From: Collinsella aerofaciens
GTDB taxonomy: Bacteria > Actinomycetota > Coriobacteriia > Coriobacteriales > Coriobacteriaceae
DNA: 39,571 nt
NCBI RefSeq assembly: GCF_901212495.1
Contig: NZ_CAAKNY010000059.1
Span: 19,014-58,584, forward strand
Reading direction: 5' to 3'
In this document: positions 17,895-33,947 of the stretch, piece after piece
How positions within the stretch are numbered: position 1 is the stretch's first letter
How the letters are laid out: each line of letters starts with the position of its first letter
The notes under the pieces: generated by a model
What the model saw: only the letters and a program-made list of their open reading frames with translations
What the model was told of the DNA's origin: nothing
Database searches by the model: none
Translations under genes and position numbers: made by a program

Positions 17895-18581
17895 ATGGCT
17901 CGCATCCTCGCGGTCGACGACGACCGCGCCATACTTCAGCTGCTCGAGCGGGCACTCTCCCGCGACGGTCACAAGGTCGAGTGCGCCGACGACCCGACTT
18001 CGGTCCCCGCGATGGACCTCTCGCGCTACGACCTTATCCTTACGGACGTGATGATGCCCGGGCTCGACGGCTTCGAACTGGTTCGTCTCGTCCGGGACCG
18101 CTTCGACGGGCCCATCATGTTCCTCACCGCCAAGGTCGCCGAGGACGACGCGGTGCTGGGCCTCGGCCTCGGCGCCGACGACTACGTGCGCAAGCCCTTC
18201 GGCGTGGCGGAGCTGCGCGCGAAGGTGGCTGCGTCGCTCCGCCGCGAGCGCCGGGTGCGCCGGAGCGTGCTCGACCTCGGCCGCGTGCGCTTCGACCTCG
18301 GGGCACGCGAACTCAGTGTGACAGCTCCCGACGGCTCGACCGGCGCGCCCGTTCCCCTCACGCCTACCGAATATGGCATCTGCGAGTTTCTCGCCAAGCA
18401 TCCCGGTCGCGCCTACGGGCGGGCGCAGATCCGCGAGGCGGTGCGGGGCTGGGGGAGCGAGACGGATGACGCGGCCGTCTCGGTCCACGTGGGCAAGGCG
18501 CGTGCCAAGCTCCGAGTCGCGGGCGTCGACCCCATCGCCACCGTGTGGGGTGTCGGATACAAGTGGGAGGCGGGGAGATGA
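17895..18581 (+). CDS. OmpR-family response regulator, module C (228 aa)
   Basis: Receiver domain (AVDDD at 6-10, Asp51 in LILTDVMMPGLDG, Lys in VRKPFG) and winged helix (LTPTEYGICEFLAKHPGRAYGRAQI...TVWGVGYKWE). ATG at 17895 follows a run of eight G, which may serve as ribosome site; a TTG at 17847 is an unlikely start. Such a G-run directly ahead of a start could vary in length and alter expression. It is the partner of the kinase at 18578, whose start overlaps its stop (ATGA). This pair would be expected to control the LanFEG genes upstream. Confidence 0.88.
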   Translation: MARILAVDDDRAILQLLERALSRDGHKVECADDPTSVPAMDLSRYDLILTDVMMPGLDGFELVRLVRDRFDGPIMFLTAKVAEDDAVLGLGLGADDYVRKPFGVAELRAKVAASLRRERRVRRSVLDLGRVRFDLGARELSVTAPDGSTGAPVPLTPTEYGICEFLAKHPGRAYGRAQIREAVRGWGSETDDAAVSVHVGKARAKLRVAGVDPIATVWGVGYKWEAGR

Positions 18582-19552
18582 GCCGTCTTCGCGGTTTGGA
18601 CGGCCGCATTCGCGTCCCGCTTGCTCTCGTAGTCGGTCGCTACTTCGTCCTCGTCCTGTTCGCGGCGCTGCTGACCGTGGGCGGGCCTTGGGCACTGTTC
18701 ACCGGCGCGATGGCGCGCGGCGAGGTGCTCCCGGCGGACTGGGGCTCGACCCATGCGGACGAGACTGTCGGCGACATCGCTTCGGCGGGTCATCTTGATC
18801 CCGACTCGCTCTCCACCGCATACCGCGTGGCGCGGCTTTCGGCCTCGGGCAGCGTCCTCTTCTCGGACATGGGGGAGGAGGCACTCGCCAGCGCCCAGAC
18901 GTCCGTCTCTTCCGCAATTGCCGCCGGTGAGACGTCCGCCCGCCCCGGCCCCGACGTCTCGTCCGGCTCGTACGCGCGGGTGGCGGCCGTGAAGCTCGCC
19001 GATGGTACCTGGGCGGCAATCTCCTGGGACATGATGCCCCACTGGGCCGACCACGCACGGGATGCGTCCTGGCCGAACCCCCAGGACCTCTGGCTCACCT
19101 CGACCATCATAGGCACGGTTCTCATGGTTGTTCTCGTCGCCCTGCGCGCCGCCCGCGTGCTCACGCGCAAGATGGAGCCGCTCGTGGTGGCGGCAAATGC
19201 CGTTGCCGCCGACGACCTCGACAAGCCCGCCGGCACGAGCGACGTGGCCGAGGTCGACGACGTGCTCGCCGCGATGGAGCGCATGCGCGTCTCGCTGAAG
19301 CGGTCCCTCGAGGAGCAGATGGCGTCTGAGGAGACCCGGCGCCAGCGCATGGAGACACTCGCCCACGAGCTCAAGACCCCGCTCACCCTCATCCAGGGCA
19401 ACGCCGAGCTCCTCGCCGCAGATCTCGAGGAAGGCCGGCTCCAGGGCGAGCAGGCCGACGAGGCCCGCGCCATCCTCGATGCCACGCACCGGCTCGATGC
19501 GGCCCTCATCGACATCATCTCCGCCTGGCGGGAGGGTGAGCGGGGTGCGTGA
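18578..19552 (+). CDS. Sensor kinase lacking its ATPase domain, module C (324 aa, truncated)
   Basis: TM1 at about residues 20-40, an extracellular domain of about 125 residues, TM2 at about 172-190, a HAMP-like region (RKMEPLVVAANAVAADDLDKP) and a DHp domain with His263 (ETLAHELKTPLTLIQGNAELL). The protein ends at ...LDAALIDIISAWREGERGA, where the ATPase domain should begin, so it cannot autophosphorylate alone. The same end sequence recurs at 21508-21592 and 22373-22425, each time next to a foreign cassette. The gene was therefore probably broken by recombination or insertion rather than being short by design. It might still act as a phosphatase or a dimer partner (inference). Confidence 0.8.
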   Translation: MSRLRGLDGRIRVPLALVVGRYFVLVLFAALLTVGGPWALFTGAMARGEVLPADWGSTHADETVGDIASAGHLDPDSLSTAYRVARLSASGSVLFSDMGEEALASAQTSVSSAIAAGETSARPGPDVSSGSYARVAAVKLADGTWAAISWDMMPHWADHARDASWPNPQDLWLTSTIIGTVLMVVLVALRAARVLTRKMEPLVVAANAVAADDLDKPAGTSDVAEVDDVLAAMERMRVSLKRSLEEQMASEETRRQRMETLAHELKTPLTLIQGNAELLAADLEEGRLQGEQADEARAILDATHRLDAALIDIISAWREGERGA

Positions 19553-19624: not shown

Positions 19625-19861
19625 CTACCTCGCTTTAACCTGCTTCATCAGCGAATCCACCATCTCGGACTCGGAGTCGACAAAGGTGTACGGTTCGTAC
19701 TCGCCGTAAGCTGAGGGTCGCGTGATGGTCACAAGTTGGAGGTCATCGCTTCCGAAACGCTTTTCGATGCGGTTCATCATGTCGACGAGGGAGGGGCCGG
19801 CTTCCGTCTGCATGGCGAGGCTTCCAGTTCTTTCGAACCATTTAGCAACCAGATAGCACAT
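19625..19861 (-). CDS. Small conserved-looking protein with RPSAYGEY motif (78 aa), possibly DUF6718
   Basis: Last gene of a three-gene minus-strand cassette. It overlaps the RelA/SpoT-domain gene by 20 bp and has a good ribosome site (AGGAGA, 7 nt before ATG). It begins MCYLVAKWFERTGSLAMQT and contains LVTITRPSAYGEYEPY near residue 50, then an acidic C-terminal stretch. I recall DUF6718 proteins with a similar start and RPSAYGEYEPY motif, but this is from memory. The overlap with a nucleotide-synthetase-like gene makes an antitoxin or regulatory partner plausible; there is no DNA-binding motif. Function unknown. Confidence 0.65.
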   Translation of the reverse strand: MCYLVAKWFERTGSLAMQTEAGPSLVDMMNRIEKRFGSDDLQLVTITRPSAYGEYEPYTFVDSESEMVDSLMKQVKAR

Positions 19862-20453
19862 CGTTCATTCTCCTCCTGAACTCCTCTTCGGTTTTTATAT
19901 CACCAGATTCATAGGACATTCGCAACTTGTATCCCACGTTCACATCATGAATGCGCTTGTAGAGGTACTTATGAAGCCAGTTGTTAAGCTGACGATCATA
20001 AAACGTGTTGTATTGGATTTCGATGGGGTAATGTCTCGATGAGAGTTGGAAATACACATGAACGCCTCGATACCCATCATCCAAGGCTTTGCCGCTGCTA
20101 AGGTCGGCGACTCGAAAGAGGGGGCGTCCCATGAGATCCATTACGTCATCGTAAGTGTCGCACATTGACCTAAAGCCCAGAAGGTCGTTGAAGACCTTGC
20201 GAGCCTGGTGATCGGGATAATATCGAGCATATTTCAGGCGAGTAGATTGACGGCTTTTGATGCGGCTGTCGACGGGAAATCGATCAAGATGTCCTGATGC
20301 CACATACCAGTTTCGTACGGCATCAAGCTCATCGAAGAGGGCTTCTTTCGGAAAGTAGCGAAGGTCTTTCTTGAGGGAGATGCCCAGCTCGCTGCGAAAG
20401 GAAAGGCTTTCAAGAACTGCTTTTGAAAGGCCGTCACGGGCAAGTATGTCCAT
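19842..20453 (-). CDS. RelA/SpoT-domain nucleotidyltransferase (203 aa), toxSAS-like candidate
   Basis: A single synthetase-type domain without hydrolase, TGS or ACT domains. The core motifs of (p)ppGpp synthetases are visible: R64-K66-S67...S70...K74 (RIKSRQSTRLK), D90 with LLGFR (91-95), the nucleotide-stacking loop GYRGVH (127-132) and EIQ (145-147). The enzyme probably transfers pyrophosphate from ATP to a nucleotide or, as in toxSAS toxins, to tRNA or adenosine nucleotides. ATG at 20453 behind GAGAGGA. It lies between a two-TM protein gene (14 bp upstream) and a 78-aa protein gene (20-bp overlap). GC is visibly lower than in the flanking modules, suggesting horizontal transfer. A housekeeping small alarmone synthetase is an alternative but would not be expected in such a cassette. 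Confidence 0.8.
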   Translation of the reverse strand: MDILARDGLSKAVLESLSFRSELGISLKKDLRYFPKEALFDELDAVRNWYVASGHLDRFPVDSRIKSRQSTRLKYARYYPDHQARKVFNDLLGFRSMCDTYDDVMDLMGRPLFRVADLSSGKALDDGYRGVHVYFQLSSRHYPIEIQYNTFYDRQLNNWLHKYLYKRIHDVNVGYKLRMSYESGDIKTEEEFRRRMNDVLSGC

Positions 20454-20467
20454 AAGGGTCCTCTCGA

Positions 20468-21001
20468 TTAAGGATTAAGCCTGGGTTCCGAACTGGGCGC
20501 GGCGAGCCTACCGGTTGTCTGTGATTGAGTATCAATATCTATATGCTGAGGCGTTTGAGAATTCCTCAATTTCTCCTCTGCAATCAGTATCTGAAGCGCG
20601 TCGTGTAAGCGGCTTGTCCTTTCTTGGGACCTAGCACGATGGAAGCAATAAATACCACTGATAGCAATTGATGCCGCAACGAAGAGGAGTGTTGGATTGT
20701 CCGCTTCATCTTTTGCGATAAGGGCGAGTGCGGAAAGAACCACCGTGACCAGCAGCGGTATATAACTTTCCCTTGGTTGCTTAATTGATTCGAGGACCAA
20801 CTCAGCGCGAGTTTCAAGAGATAACAGCCCATCACTTGGGCTATTTCTGTTGGAGCAGCTTGATGTGAATTGCGTTTCGTTCAGTTCTTCCCTTAAAACG
20901 CTTAAGTCATAGTCCTTCGCCTCGAGAGCATGTGCGAAGTGTCCGGCTAGGGTCCGATCGTATAGAAGGTGGCGCTTGGTAAAGATGTCTTGAGAATTCA
21001 C
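20468..21001 (-). CDS. Two-TM membrane protein of unknown function (177 aa), first gene of the RelA/SpoT cassette
   Basis: A soluble N-terminal region (about 80 residues, helical, ending LETRAELVLESIKQP), two hydrophobic helices (about 80-96 and 104-121) split by a short acidic loop (KDEADN), a helical segment (RLHDALQILIAEEKLR) and a polar tail. Start chosen: GTG 21001, with AAAGGAA 5 nt upstream; ATG 21022 is in frame but lacks a ribosome site. The architecture recalls 2TM effectors such as SLATT proteins paired with nucleotide-producing enzymes in bacterial conflict systems, but no sequence motif proves it. It could equally be a partner or anchor for the synthetase. Confidence 0.65.
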   Translation of the reverse strand: MNSQDIFTKRHLLYDRTLAGHFAHALEAKDYDLSVLREELNETQFTSSCSNRNSPSDGLLSLETRAELVLESIKQPRESYIPLLVTVVLSALALIAKDEADNPTLLFVAASIAISGIYCFHRARSQERTSRLHDALQILIAEEKLRNSQTPQHIDIDTQSQTTGRLAAPSSEPRLNP

Positions 21002-21203
21002 AGGGTTCCTTTCATGTGTCATTAGCTTGCTTTTTTATGATGCCATGTCGTGCGGACAAATACGATTGTTTGCCAGACGGTGGTTGGCTTTTGTAGCGAC
21101 TGGCTGCATCATCCCGTGCCTCTCGCCCCCTTTGCGCCCCCGTAATGCGACTCGTAGAAAAATGGTCAAATTCACCTGAGTGTACAACGGACGGGAGGGC
21201 GCC

Positions 21204-21636
21204 ATGAGGGTGCTGGTGGTGGAGGATAACGAGGTGCTCGCCGCGTCCATGTGCGACGGGCTCGGCGCCCGGGGCCCGGGCGCCGACGTGGCGGGAACGC
21301 TTGCGGGTGCTGATAGTGCTTTTTACTTATGGGGTGAGGAAATTGGTGGCAGAGTCATCCGCGAGCTCCTCCACAACGCCATCGCCCACCAGGGTTGCCC
21401 TGCGCTCCGCCCGCGCGCTCACGCGCAAGATGGAGCCGCTCGTGGCGGCGGCGAACGCCGTTGCCGCCGACGACCTCGACAGGCCCGCCGGCACGAGCGG
21501 CGTGTGCGAGGCCCGCGCCATCCTCGACGCCACGCACCGGCTCGATGCGGCCCTCATCGACATCATCTCCGCCTGGCGGGAGGGTGAGCGGGACGGCGAG
21601 GGGCGGTTGGAACCCGATGCGGATTCGCGAGGCTAA
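21204..21636 (+). pseudogene. Scrambled remnant of a two-component system
   Basis: ATG 21204 behind GGGAGGG starts MRVLVVEDNEVLAASMCDGL, the first 35 or so residues of an OmpR-type receiver. It runs directly into GGRVIRELLHNAIAHQG, the N-box of a kinase ATPase domain. In another frame (21399-21499) the sequence is nearly identical to the HAMP region of the kinase at 18578 (19141-19241), and 21508-21592 matches its DHp end (19460-19545). The 218 bp in between are deleted. Pieces are out of frame with each other, so no functional protein is expected. It lies between two toxin-antitoxin-like cassettes. Confidence 0.8.
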
Positions 21637-21811: not shown

Positions 21812-22063
21812 ATGACTTCTATTACGGCAACGGCGGCACGCAAGGACCTGTACAACGTTATCACGCGCGTCAACGAGGACTGCGCTCCGGTGGCCATCAC
21901 GAACAGTCGCGGTAAGGGTGCCGTGCTCGTCGGAGAGGATGAGTGGGCCTCTATCGAGGAGACGCTCTATCTCATGGGTATTCCCGGCGTTGCCGAGTCG
22001 ATTGTTGCAGGGAAGGCGGAGCCGGTCGAGAATTGCGTCACCGAAGACGCGCTGGACTGGTAG
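21812..22063 (+). CDS. yefM: YefM/Phd-family antitoxin (83 aa)
   Basis: The N-terminal DNA-binding fold is typical: SITATAARKDLYNVITRVNED, then APVAITNSRGKGAVLVGEDEWASIEETLYLM. The acidic C-terminal part (VENCVTEDALDW) would wrap and neutralise the toxin. ATG at 21812 behind AAGGGAGG. The toxin gene begins 2 nt after its stop. It represses the operon through the palindromes at 21773-21796 (inferred from the family). The pair is inserted between two copies of a kinase fragment. Confidence 0.92.
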   Translation: MTSITATAARKDLYNVITRVNEDCAPVAITNSRGKGAVLVGEDEWASIEETLYLMGIPGVAESIVAGKAEPVENCVTEDALDW

Positions 22064-22065
22064 CC

Positions 22066-22362
22066 ATGTGGCTTGTCGTGTTCACCGAGCAAGCCCAGAA
22101 GGATGCAAAGCAGCTCAAGGCGGCGGGGCTTGCCGGCAAGGCGAAGGCGCTTGTCGCGGCAGTGCGGGAGGATCCTTTCAAGGTCCCCCCGCGCTATGAG
22201 GCCCTCGTTGGCAATCTATCTGGCCTCTACTCTCGCCGCATCAGCCTGCAGCACCGCTTCGTTTACGAGACGATCAAGGGGGAGATTGAGAGGGGCGGCA
22301 CTCTCTATGAGGGAACGGTCAAGATCGTTCGCATGTGGACGCATTATGACGGGGTGCGATAA
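22066..22362 (+). CDS. yoeB: Txe/YoeB-family mRNA endonuclease toxin (98 aa)
   Basis: Small RelE-fold ribonuclease that cleaves mRNA on the ribosome. It has the family segments VVFTEQAQKDAKQL, P(P)RYEALVGNLSGLYSRRIS, QHRFVYE and a C-terminal H-Y (MWTHYDG) where YoeB has its catalytic His-Tyr. The Arg of SRRIS corresponds to the catalytic Arg. About 12 residues longer than E. coli YoeB because of an insert (KGEIERGGTLYEG). ATG at 22066, 2 nt after yefM. It looks intact. Confidence 0.9.
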   Translation: MWLVVFTEQAQKDAKQLKAAGLAGKAKALVAAVREDPFKVPPRYEALVGNLSGLYSRRISLQHRFVYETIKGEIERGGTLYEGTVKIVRMWTHYDGVR

Positions 22363-22470: not shown

Positions 22471-23171
22471 CCTAGCTGTTCAGTGCCAACAGGTTGTTTA
22501 CGCCAAGCTGGTGACAGACAGGGAGCGCCCCGCCAAGCTGTGAGTTGTCTAGGCTTACGGCGGGGACCCTCCCATGTCCCAGCATCCCAGCGCAAGGCTC
22601 ACGCCCAAGGGGCGGGAGCGCATGGTCGAGCGCATCGAGGCCGGCGAGCCGGTGTCCGAGGTCGCGCGCCAGGTTGGCGTGAGCAGGCGGACCGCCGGCA
22701 AATGGCTCGCGAGGGCGAGGGCCGGCGAGCCGATGGCCGACCGCCCGAGCCGCCCCCGCACGCTGGCGAAGCTCACCCCGCCCGACGTCGAGGACGGGGT
22801 CTGCGAGGCCCTCGCGGCGTCGGCGATCGCCTTCTCCGCCTCGCGCGGGGTGGCCGTCGAGCGCGTCGTGGCCGACAACGGGCCCGGCTACCGCAGCCGC
22901 CTCTTCAACGAGTCCCTGGAGGCCCGCGGCGTCAGGCACAAGCACACAAGGCCTTTCAGCCCCTGGCAGAACGGCAGGGTCGAGCGCATGAACCGGACGC
23001 TCGCGCGGGAGTGGCGGTACACCCGGGCGTGGGGGAGCGAGGCCTCCAGGGCGGAGGCTCTGGGGCCTGCATGGGCCATTGCAATTGGGGCAGGCCGCAC
23101 GGCGCCTGCGGGGACCTGCCCCGAGTCACGGATCCACGGCGTAAACAACGTCATGGCACGCAACAGCTAGG
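22471..23171 (+). mobile_element. Internally deleted IS481-family element (about 700 bp) with CTAG flanks
   Basis: The left end (CCTAGCTGTTCAGTGCCA... GTTGTTTACGCC) and right end (GGCGTAAACAACG...TGGCACGCAACAGCTAGG) are imperfect inverted repeats of about 32 bp. CTAG occurs at both outer edges (22472-22475 and 23167-23170), consistent with the CTAG target duplication of many IS481 elements. The element is about half the usual size because the transposase gene has an internal deletion, so it can move only with help. Confidence 0.8.
22574..23170 (+). pseudogene. IS481-family transposase, internally deleted and frameshifted
   Basis: Starts MSQHPSARLTPKGRERMVER and has the helix-turn-helix (EVARQVGVSRRTAGKWLARA). 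After VEDGVCEAL it jumps to RGVAVERVVADNGPGYRSRL, which holds the second catalytic Asp, and later NGRVERMNRTLAREW, which holds the Glu. About 130 residues that should contain the first catalytic Asp are missing. Near the end the typical HCNWGRPHGACG is in another frame (about 23070-23110), before PESRIHGVNNVMARNS returns. Not functional. Confidence 0.82.
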
Positions 23172-32475: not shown

Positions 32476-32663
32476 GTCTCGGTCTCGGTTCTGGTGCCAC
32501 CACACCAGCGTGGGTGGGGGATACAGTTGCAAGTGGAGGTCATAAGCTGCGTCGAGGAAGGAGCCGGAAAATGAATCGCGCCGCATCTCCCTCGATTCTG
32601 AGAGCTTCTATATTACAATGTTAAAAATTTGCATTAGATGAAGATCTTTCACATGGAGGCGTG

Positions 32664-33947
32664 ATGATTATCCGTCAAAAGTACCTTGACCAGCTTCTCG
32701 CCTTTCGGGATCGAGACCTCGTCAAGGTCGTTACGGGGGTTCGTCGTTGCGGGAAGTCGACCCTTCTGGACATGATGCGCGAGCATCTGGCAAGGGAGGG
32801 CGTTTCCCGGGAGCGACTTCTCACGTTCAAGATGGAGTCCATGGAGTTTGATGGCTTGGATTATCGCGGGCTTTACCAGCTTGTTCGCAAACGGACGGAG
32901 GGAATCGTCCATCCATATCTCTTTTTTGACGAGCTCCAAGAGATCGAGGGCTGGGAGCGCGCGATCAATTCCCTGCGCGTTGACCTTGATTGCGATATGT
33001 ATATCACGGGATCCAACGCCTATCTGCTGTCGAGCGAGCTTGCCACGCTGCTCTCGGGGCGTTATGTGGAGGTCGAGATGCTGCCGCTCGTCTTCTCGGA
33101 GTTTCTCGATTTCCAGGGAGCGTCACTGTCCTCTCGCACTGCGGCTGGGATGGATGTCTTCGAGTTGCCGGATGGCTCGCTTAGCACGGCGGTTGGCCTG
33201 TTTGATCATTATCGTCGCTACGGCGGGCTGCCGTACCTATCCTTGGGTACGCTAGACGGGGCGGTTCATAAGGCCTATTGCAGGTCACTGTACGAGACGG
33301 TCGTCATCCGGGATATTCTCGAGCGCGATCGCAGGCGTGGCCGCAGGCAGCTCACAAGCCCTGATTTGCTGGAGCGAACATGCCGCTTCCTTGCAGACAA
33401 TATCGGTAACGAGAATTCGGTTAACAGTATTGCCGGAGCGTTGCGGGCTGACGGCATCAAGGCTGCTAACAGTACTGTCGACGCCTACATGGGGGCGCTT
33501 GATGAGGCGTATCTCTTCTATCCTGTTCGGCGCTATGACATCAGGGGCAAGGATCTCCTGAAGACGGGTGGAAAGCGTTACATCGTGGACACGGGAATCC
33601 GCAACTATCTGCAGGACTATCGTGATTTCGATCAAGGACGTGTCTTTGAGAACATGGTCTACTTGCAGCTTCGCCACGAGGGTTTTGAGGTGAGCGTTGG
33701 AAAGCTGCGCTCAGGTGAGGTGGACTTCGTGGCGTCGGGGTCAGACGGGCGTGCGTACATTCAGGTAACCGAGGATATGACTGACTCGGCCACCATGGAG
33801 CGTGAGCTTAGGCCGCTGCGCGCCATACGGGATGCATATCCGAAATTTGTAATTGCTGCCCGGGGGAGTTATCCAAGGGAGATTGACGGGATTCGTATCT
33901 TAGATGTTATGGATTTCTTTTTGCAAAGAAGGCCACTACTGGCGTAG
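32664..33947 (+). CDS. AAA-family ATPase with DUF4143-type C-terminus (427 aa)
   Basis: N-terminal P-loop domain: Walker A GVRRCGKST (residues 25-33) and Walker B PYLFFDELQE (about 84-93), then TGSNAYLLSSELATLLSGRY as sensor region. The C-terminal half (from about residue 190) has YETVVIRDILERD and the nuclease-like segment GEVDFVASG...AYIQVTEDM, as in the DUF4143 group related to PD-(D/E)xK folds. These proteins are common in gut bacteria; their role is unclear. ATG at 32664 with TGGAGG; the GTG one codon earlier is less likely. Codon use is visibly less GC-rich than around it, so it was probably acquired separately. Confidence 0.85.
   Translation: MIIRQKYLDQLLAFRDRDLVKVVTGVRRCGKSTLLDMMREHLAREGVSRERLLTFKMESMEFDGLDYRGLYQLVRKRTEGIVHPYLFFDELQEIEGWERAINSLRVDLDCDMYITGSNAYLLSSELATLLSGRYVEVEMLPLVFSEFLDFQGASLSSRTAAGMDVFELPDGSLSTAVGLFDHYRRYGGLPYLSLGTLDGAVHKAYCRSLYETVVIRDILERDRRRGRRQLTSPDLLERTCRFLADNIGNENSVNSIAGALRADGIKAANSTVDAYMGALDEAYLFYPVRRYDIRGKDLLKTGGKRYIVDTGIRNYLQDYRDFDQGRVFENMVYLQLRHEGFEVSVGKLRSGEVDFVASGSDGRAYIQVTEDMTDSATMERELRPLRAIRDAYPKFVIAARGSYPREIDGIRILDVMDFFLQRRPLLA

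Follow-up and report, generated by a model that had tools for sequence, protein, structure and literature searches.

A three-gene cassette in the 39,571-nucleotide stretch of Collinsella aerofaciens DNA analysed here (hereafter the window) is read, with a probability of roughly 0.92, as a type II toxin-antitoxin module of the FaRel2/ATfaRel2 kind that a Coriobacteriales genome has acquired, the adjacent two-transmembrane (two-TM) gene being a passenger or optional neighbour. The pair is assigned to the FaRel2/ATfaRel2 toxSAS module because both proteins match the solved pair and the antitoxin carries the YXXY motif. A sequence-only reading had wavered between a toxin-antitoxin pair with a membrane partner and an alarmone-signalling defence system; its toxin-antitoxin option was right and can now be made specific as FaRel2 plus ATfaRel2, a characterised toxSAS pair. 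Judged by their sequences, two of the trio's three genes are therefore of an already known kind. The trio comprises the following genes:

19625..19861, minus strand: aTfaRel2, antitoxin of 78 aa, DUF6718, with YXXY at residues 52-55; matches PDB ATfaRel2 and Pfam PF20476
19842..20453, minus strand: faRel2, toxSAS toxin of 203 aa with a single RelA/SpoT-like synthetase domain; matches PDB FaRel2
20468..21022, minus strand: orphan two-TM protein gene, 184 aa with two hydrophobic segments

The earlier description of three tightly packed minus-strand genes was confirmed: the open reading frames (ORFs), the 14-bp gap between the two-TM and toxin genes, and the 20-bp overlap between the toxin and antitoxin genes were all recovered. 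The span of the trio had been given as 19625..21001, of which the left end stands, whereas 21001 is an internal GTG; the two-TM gene more probably begins with the ATG at 21022, given that a 90% identical protein (P0121) has the same seven extra N-terminal residues. A ribosome-binding-like AGGAGGAG precedes the aTfaRel2 start, and the corresponding GAGAGGA for the toxin sits inside the 14-bp gap. The contrast between low-GC genes and a surrounding high-GC island was likewise borne out, with GC at 49-55% in the 1-kb segments starting at 19501, 20001, and 20501, ~61% just outside the trio (segments starting at 19001 and at 21001-21501), and ~70% further away; the two-TM gene shares the low GC of the toxin. 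Scans for regulatory signals returned one promoter-like site (1.6 expected) and four terminator-like sites (1.6 expected, sd 1.4), the latter all on the plus strand, opposite to the trio genes. A separate low-GC patch of the window (48-55%) holds an AAA_14/DUF4143 ATPase gene (32661-33947, plus strand; Pfam E 2e-29 and 6.1e-15).

The 203-aa synthetase matches the PDB FaRel2 entries 8pu4, 8pu3, and 8pu1 over residues 2-203 (E 2e-64 to 4.4e-64), while its score against Pfam RelA_SpoT falls just below the cut-off (26 bits against 27) and an NCBIfam search gave no match; weaker relationships were recorded to phrog_4012 (unknown function; E 1.8e-8) and, only marginally, to PADLOC PDC-S33 (E 0.0022). 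As 1,983 of 2,067 candidates are homologous at E<=1e-3, the synthetase is not a chance ORF. Its core motifs were found at the residues that the sequence-only reading had given, and the loss of catalytic residues that would have spoken against an active enzyme is not seen: all 11 compared ATP-site/catalytic residues (R64, K66, S70, K74, R77, D90, G93, R95, Y128, E145, and Q147), a list taken from published work on FaRel2 (PMC11782079; PMC10565793) and numbered identically in the window toxin and Coprobacillus FaRel2, are kept. The full set is present in 73 of 80 related loci; the others are L007, L033, L040, L046, L071, L073, and L080, and part of these losses are gaps, since the ORF calls of L033, L040, L046, and L071 are short or late-starting. 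According to PMC11559606, FaRel2 needs the basic residues K28/R29 for tRNA binding. The window toxin has K28 and K29; of the 80 loci, 73 have K at position 28, and at position 29 there are 63 with K and 6 with R. Taken by analogy with its solved relative, the 203-aa protein is very probably a FaRel2-type toxSAS toxin that disables tRNA.

The 78-aa protein, in turn, matches the ATfaRel2 chains 8pu1_A (E 2.2e-17) and 8pu3_A (E 2.6e-17), and its match to Pfam PF20476 (DUF6718; E 5.5e-30) indicates that it is not a chance ORF either. Its YXXY neutralisation motif is Y52-G-E-Y55, so the string RPSAYGEY by which the small protein had first been singled out includes the published motif; all 79 antitoxins from related loci end the motif with Y, and they begin it with either Y (76) or F (3). 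As Coprobacillus ATfaRel2 itself scores DUF6718 (E 8.7e-29, over 66 of its residues), DUF6718 can be taken to represent the family of ATfaRel2 antitoxins; the term DUF6718 was not found in our literature search.

Both window proteins are homologous over nearly their whole length to the FaRel2/ATfaRel2 pair of Coprobacillus sp. D7 (PDB 8pu1-8pu4; PMC11782079; PMC10565793; PMC11559606), with which they share the catalytic-residue numbering and the YXXY antitoxin motif; they differ from it in that K29 replaces R29 in the toxin, there is a two-TM gene 14 bp upstream, and the window pair is known from sequence alone. In these papers, FaRel2, the founder of the family, is described as modifying tRNA 3'-CCA ends (PMC10565793; PMC11559606) with a preference for tRNA-Gly and tRNA-Thr (PMC11559606), and ATfaRel2 as keeping ATP out of the donor site via its YXXY motif (PMC11782079). 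If activity, target, and neutralisation mode are as in the Coprobacillus pair, the 203-aa toxin would be a tRNA-targeting enzyme, and the 78-aa protein would bind it and keep it switched off by wedging YXXY into the ATP donor pocket. The module may act against phages or help to retain the locus; the first of these roles is suggested by analogy with other toxSASs, but the Coprobacillus FaRel2:ATfaRel2 pair gave no protection against BASEL phages in E. coli, a result that its authors blame on the foreign host (PMC11559606). CapRel offers a further likeness, with a related synthetase fold and the same YXXY neutralisation logic according to PMC11782079, although CapRel is a fused toxin-antitoxin and the window pair consists of two proteins; the same paper has the ATfaRel2-type antitoxin fold circularly permuted relative to CapRel.

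The linkage of the two genes recurs widely. A scan of genome contigs confirmed 131 loci, and of the best 80 of these 131, 79 have an ATfaRel2-like ORF 3' of the toxin and on its strand; in the 80th (L012), the sequence stops 139 bases past the toxin ORF. In 78 of the 79, the antitoxin and toxin ORFs overlap (the exception, L040, has a short toxin ORF), these overlaps being upper bounds because each ORF was extended to its earliest possible start. Locus L001 lies within L003 and was not counted, and L083 is apparently the same contig as L010. Close counterparts are the DUF6718-linked pairs of Collinsella sp. An2 (L003; toxin 73% identical to that of the window) and Slackia isoflavoniconvertens (L010/L083; 62% identical), in each of which the downstream antitoxin gene overlaps the toxin gene; they differ from the window in their insertion sites and in the absence of a two-TM homologue. 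The L083 pair sits between what we take to be sugar-nucleotide genes resembling rfbA and rfbB.

Within the class, distribution is patchy: the toxin was matched in 5 of 396 genomes, in two of them at full length (E 7e-99 and 6e-81), the other three matches being one to residues 124-201 only (E 1.5e-40) and two weak ones. A DUF6718 search of the same 396 genomes gave five matches, four above the cut-off, of which three fall in the genomes with strong toxin matches and one in a genome (G020) where the toxin was not matched. In that last genome, the DUF6718 gene (L113, 1489-1779, minus strand) adjoins an rfbA-like gene and is possibly an orphan antitoxin, maybe left after toxin loss. At another locus (L084/L111, genome G269), only toxin residues 124-201 are matched, next to a DUF6718 gene, perhaps a decayed toxin whose antitoxin was kept. 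Searches of mobile elements gave no relative among viral contigs with the single toxin as query, two relatives (62% and 27% identity) there with the toxin alignment, no toxin match among phage records, and, among plasmid records, no DNA match and three protein matches, two of which have a DUF6718 gene under the match. The Clostridioides difficile plasmid pCd5_2 (L115) has an overlapping pair made up of a DUF6718 gene and a RelA/SpoT-family gene (44% identity to the toxin), and this pair adjoins ParB-like and AAA ATPase partition genes.

This recurrent antitoxin also bears on a more conventional assignment, namely an ordinary small alarmone synthetase of the RelP/RelQ kind that makes (p)ppGpp for the stringent response beside small, unrelated neighbours. 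The single RelA/SpoT-like domain with its usual core motifs is what such an enzyme would have, but the absence of any RelP or RelQ chain among the PDB matches at E<=1 (the three strong matches are all FaRel2), the patchy occurrence in the class, and an antitoxin linked in 79 of the best 80 of 131 loci together leave this assignment with next to no probability.

The two-TM gene presents a different picture from the pair. Its 184-aa product does contain the two hydrophobic segments that had been claimed for it (19 residues each, 85-103 and 110-128), and the ORF is probably a real gene, since P0121, the sole match in a search of ~5.8 billion proteins, is a homologue cluster of near-identical length (184 aa). 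A three-row profile run against the same proteins returned P0121 and P0122 (Parolsenella massiliensis, 25%), the latter being the protein of locus L002 and itself one row of the profile; these protein searches reach only relatives that share exact short words with the query. In genome searches, the protein was matched in 1 of 148 relatives and in 1 of 396 genomes of the class, at the same locus both times. When the profile was run against 88 loci and the window, it matched only the window and L002, leaving 0 of 87 other loci; of these, L007, L017, L046, and L074 include only a short stretch of sequence upstream of the toxin, and the toxin matches at L084-L086 and L088 are remnants or distant. 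The relative in L002 (Parolsenella) is not beside a toxin; it adjoins what is presumably an iron-sulphur/hydrogenase-like ORF. Family searches with the two-TM protein gave no match in Pfam (E<=10), in NCBIfam or PADLOC (E<=1), or among viral contigs, one chance-level match in PHROGs (E 0.33), and best values of E 0.5 and 0.68 against PDB sequences. An AlphaFold2 model built from the three-row alignment was weak (mean pLDDT 60.3), so its Foldseek result (best E 0.88, none at 0.001) says little. Recurrence of the trio, which the sequence-only reading had taken as a touchstone, was not found as far as the 87 other loci extend, and the trio was not met again in readable DNA, P0001, P0002 (both described below), and P0121 being known as protein representatives only.

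Further evidence comes from the site itself. Relative to G001, the nearest of the genomes searched, the window carries an insert of 2,048 bases flanked by an 86-bp direct repeat (99%). Besides the toxin-antitoxin pair and the two-TM gene, this insert contains what is left of a second kinase copy. The surrounding features are as follows:

18545..19552, plus strand: histidine-kinase gene, left flank (HisKA; HAMP just below the cut-off)
19459..19544, plus strand: left copy of the 86-bp direct repeat D4, at the 3' end of the histidine-kinase gene; 99% to 21507-21592, spacing 2048
21394..21539, plus strand: histidine-kinase gene fragment inside the insert; 86% to 19136-19281 (repeat D1)
21507..21592, plus strand: right copy of the 86-bp direct repeat D4 (99% repeat; single copy in G001)
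21812..22063, plus strand: yefM-like antitoxin of a second pair, right flank (Pfam PhdYeFM_antitox, E 2e-16)
22066..22362, plus strand: yoeB-like toxin of the second pair (Pfam YoeB_toxin, E 3.2e-9)

The entire insert is missing from G001. There, the kinase gene continues into the yefM-yoeB region, and searches with the toxin and with the two-TM protein gave no match. The yefM-yoeB-like pair just beyond the insert is also present in G001 (97% over 756 bases). Inside the insert, the kinase fragment is 88% identical to the G001 kinase gene over 21394-21530, and the ORF at 21301-21636 has no Pfam match; the left-flank kinase differs from that of G001 in its last residues. The insert may have entered by recombination between related kinase genes, with an insertion history that was not simple, as the joint in the allele P0001 (near 21645) lies off the repeat edge (21592). 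Close to the insert, an ORF at 22574-23170 (plus strand) resembles IS481/integrase-core transposases, with several Pfam transposase/integrase matches.

Two further alleles, P0001 and P0002, are known from cluster-representative proteins rather than contigs. Their toxins are 99% and 97% identical to that of the window, and both have N-terminal extensions. The P0001 extension matches window positions 21770-21645 (minus strand; 93% over 42 aa), a stretch just upstream of the yefM-yoeB pair, and that of P0002 agrees with the same stretch in a comparison by eye. In both alleles, the toxin frame thus runs on without a break from DNA whose counterpart in the window is ~1.2 kb away from the toxin, past the two-TM gene and the kinase remnants. 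At the joint, an I stands where the toxin usually has its ATG-coded start M, and P0001 and P0002 may be deletion derivatives because this start residue has been lost. The membrane partner that the sequence-only reading had attached to the pair fares poorly on both counts, having a homologue in none of the 87 other loci and no room in the P0001/P0002 toxin frame.

A working role for the two-TM protein is nevertheless conceivable, if improbable. It would be an accessory specific to the lineage, either freeing the toxin from ATfaRel2 when it senses membrane damage or phage, or anchoring the pair at the membrane; in its fullest form, which we likewise hold to be a long shot, the cassette would be a membrane-gated, tRNA-targeting three-part defence system whose two-TM trigger was gained in the lineage, with P0001 and P0002 as deletion derivatives. 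The two-TM gene may be co-transcribed with the toxin, as it lies 14 bp upstream with similarly low GC, on the same strand and with the toxin's GAGAGGA in the gap; P0121, with 15 sequences from 3 contigs, and P0001, with 16 sequences from 4 contigs, would fit joint travel, the contigs themselves being unseen; and an origin of P0001 and P0002 by deletion from a three-part system fits their loss of the usual toxin start. Against this stand the 0 of 87 other loci with a two-TM homologue (some of them with little upstream DNA), the absence of the gene between the toxin and yefM-upstream DNA in P0001 and P0002, and the Parolsenella relative, the only other one seen in DNA, which is not beside a toxin. 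A limited literature search turned up no report of a membrane partner for any toxSAS. The two-TM gene probably stands outside the module, most likely as a passenger or an optional neighbour.

Nucleotide-signalled defence systems with 2TM effectors exist, and the window resembles them in that an enzyme using nucleotides has a small two-TM protein as its neighbour. A system of this type, in which an alarmone opens or assembles the two-TM membrane effector and the small protein acts as regulator, was set aside once the FaRel2 and ATfaRel2 matches emerged. It draws only on this general resemblance of a RelA/SpoT-fold enzyme next to a small two-TM protein and now appears hardly credible: the best enzyme match modifies tRNA, the small protein is the dedicated antitoxin of that enzyme, neither the two-TM nor the small protein matches a defence family (the enzyme does so only through the weak PDC-S33 hit), and the pair occurs elsewhere without the two-TM gene (0 of 87 other loci). 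In contrast to such systems, the window combines a two-TM protein that has no family match with a FaRel2-type enzyme in a trio that was not met again in readable DNA. The proposal that an alarmone gates the 2TM protein is further weakened by the tRNA 3'-CCA activity of the family founder (PMC10565793; PMC11559606), and the window analysis gave no pointer to a free signal nucleotide.

With the FaRel2/ATfaRel2 reading, a find that resembled a new signalling system is settled, two of its three genes being a known toxin-antitoxin pair. DUF6718, listed in Pfam as a domain of unknown function, could be named a toxSAS antitoxin family. Were the two-TM protein to control the toxin after all, it would represent a new kind of toxSAS trigger. 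Finally, the site offers a natural comparison of related alleles (empty, with the toxin beside yefM-upstream DNA, and with the pair plus the two-TM gene). With another toxin-antitoxin pair alongside, this allele series could be useful for studying the arrival and decay of such modules in Coriobacteriales.
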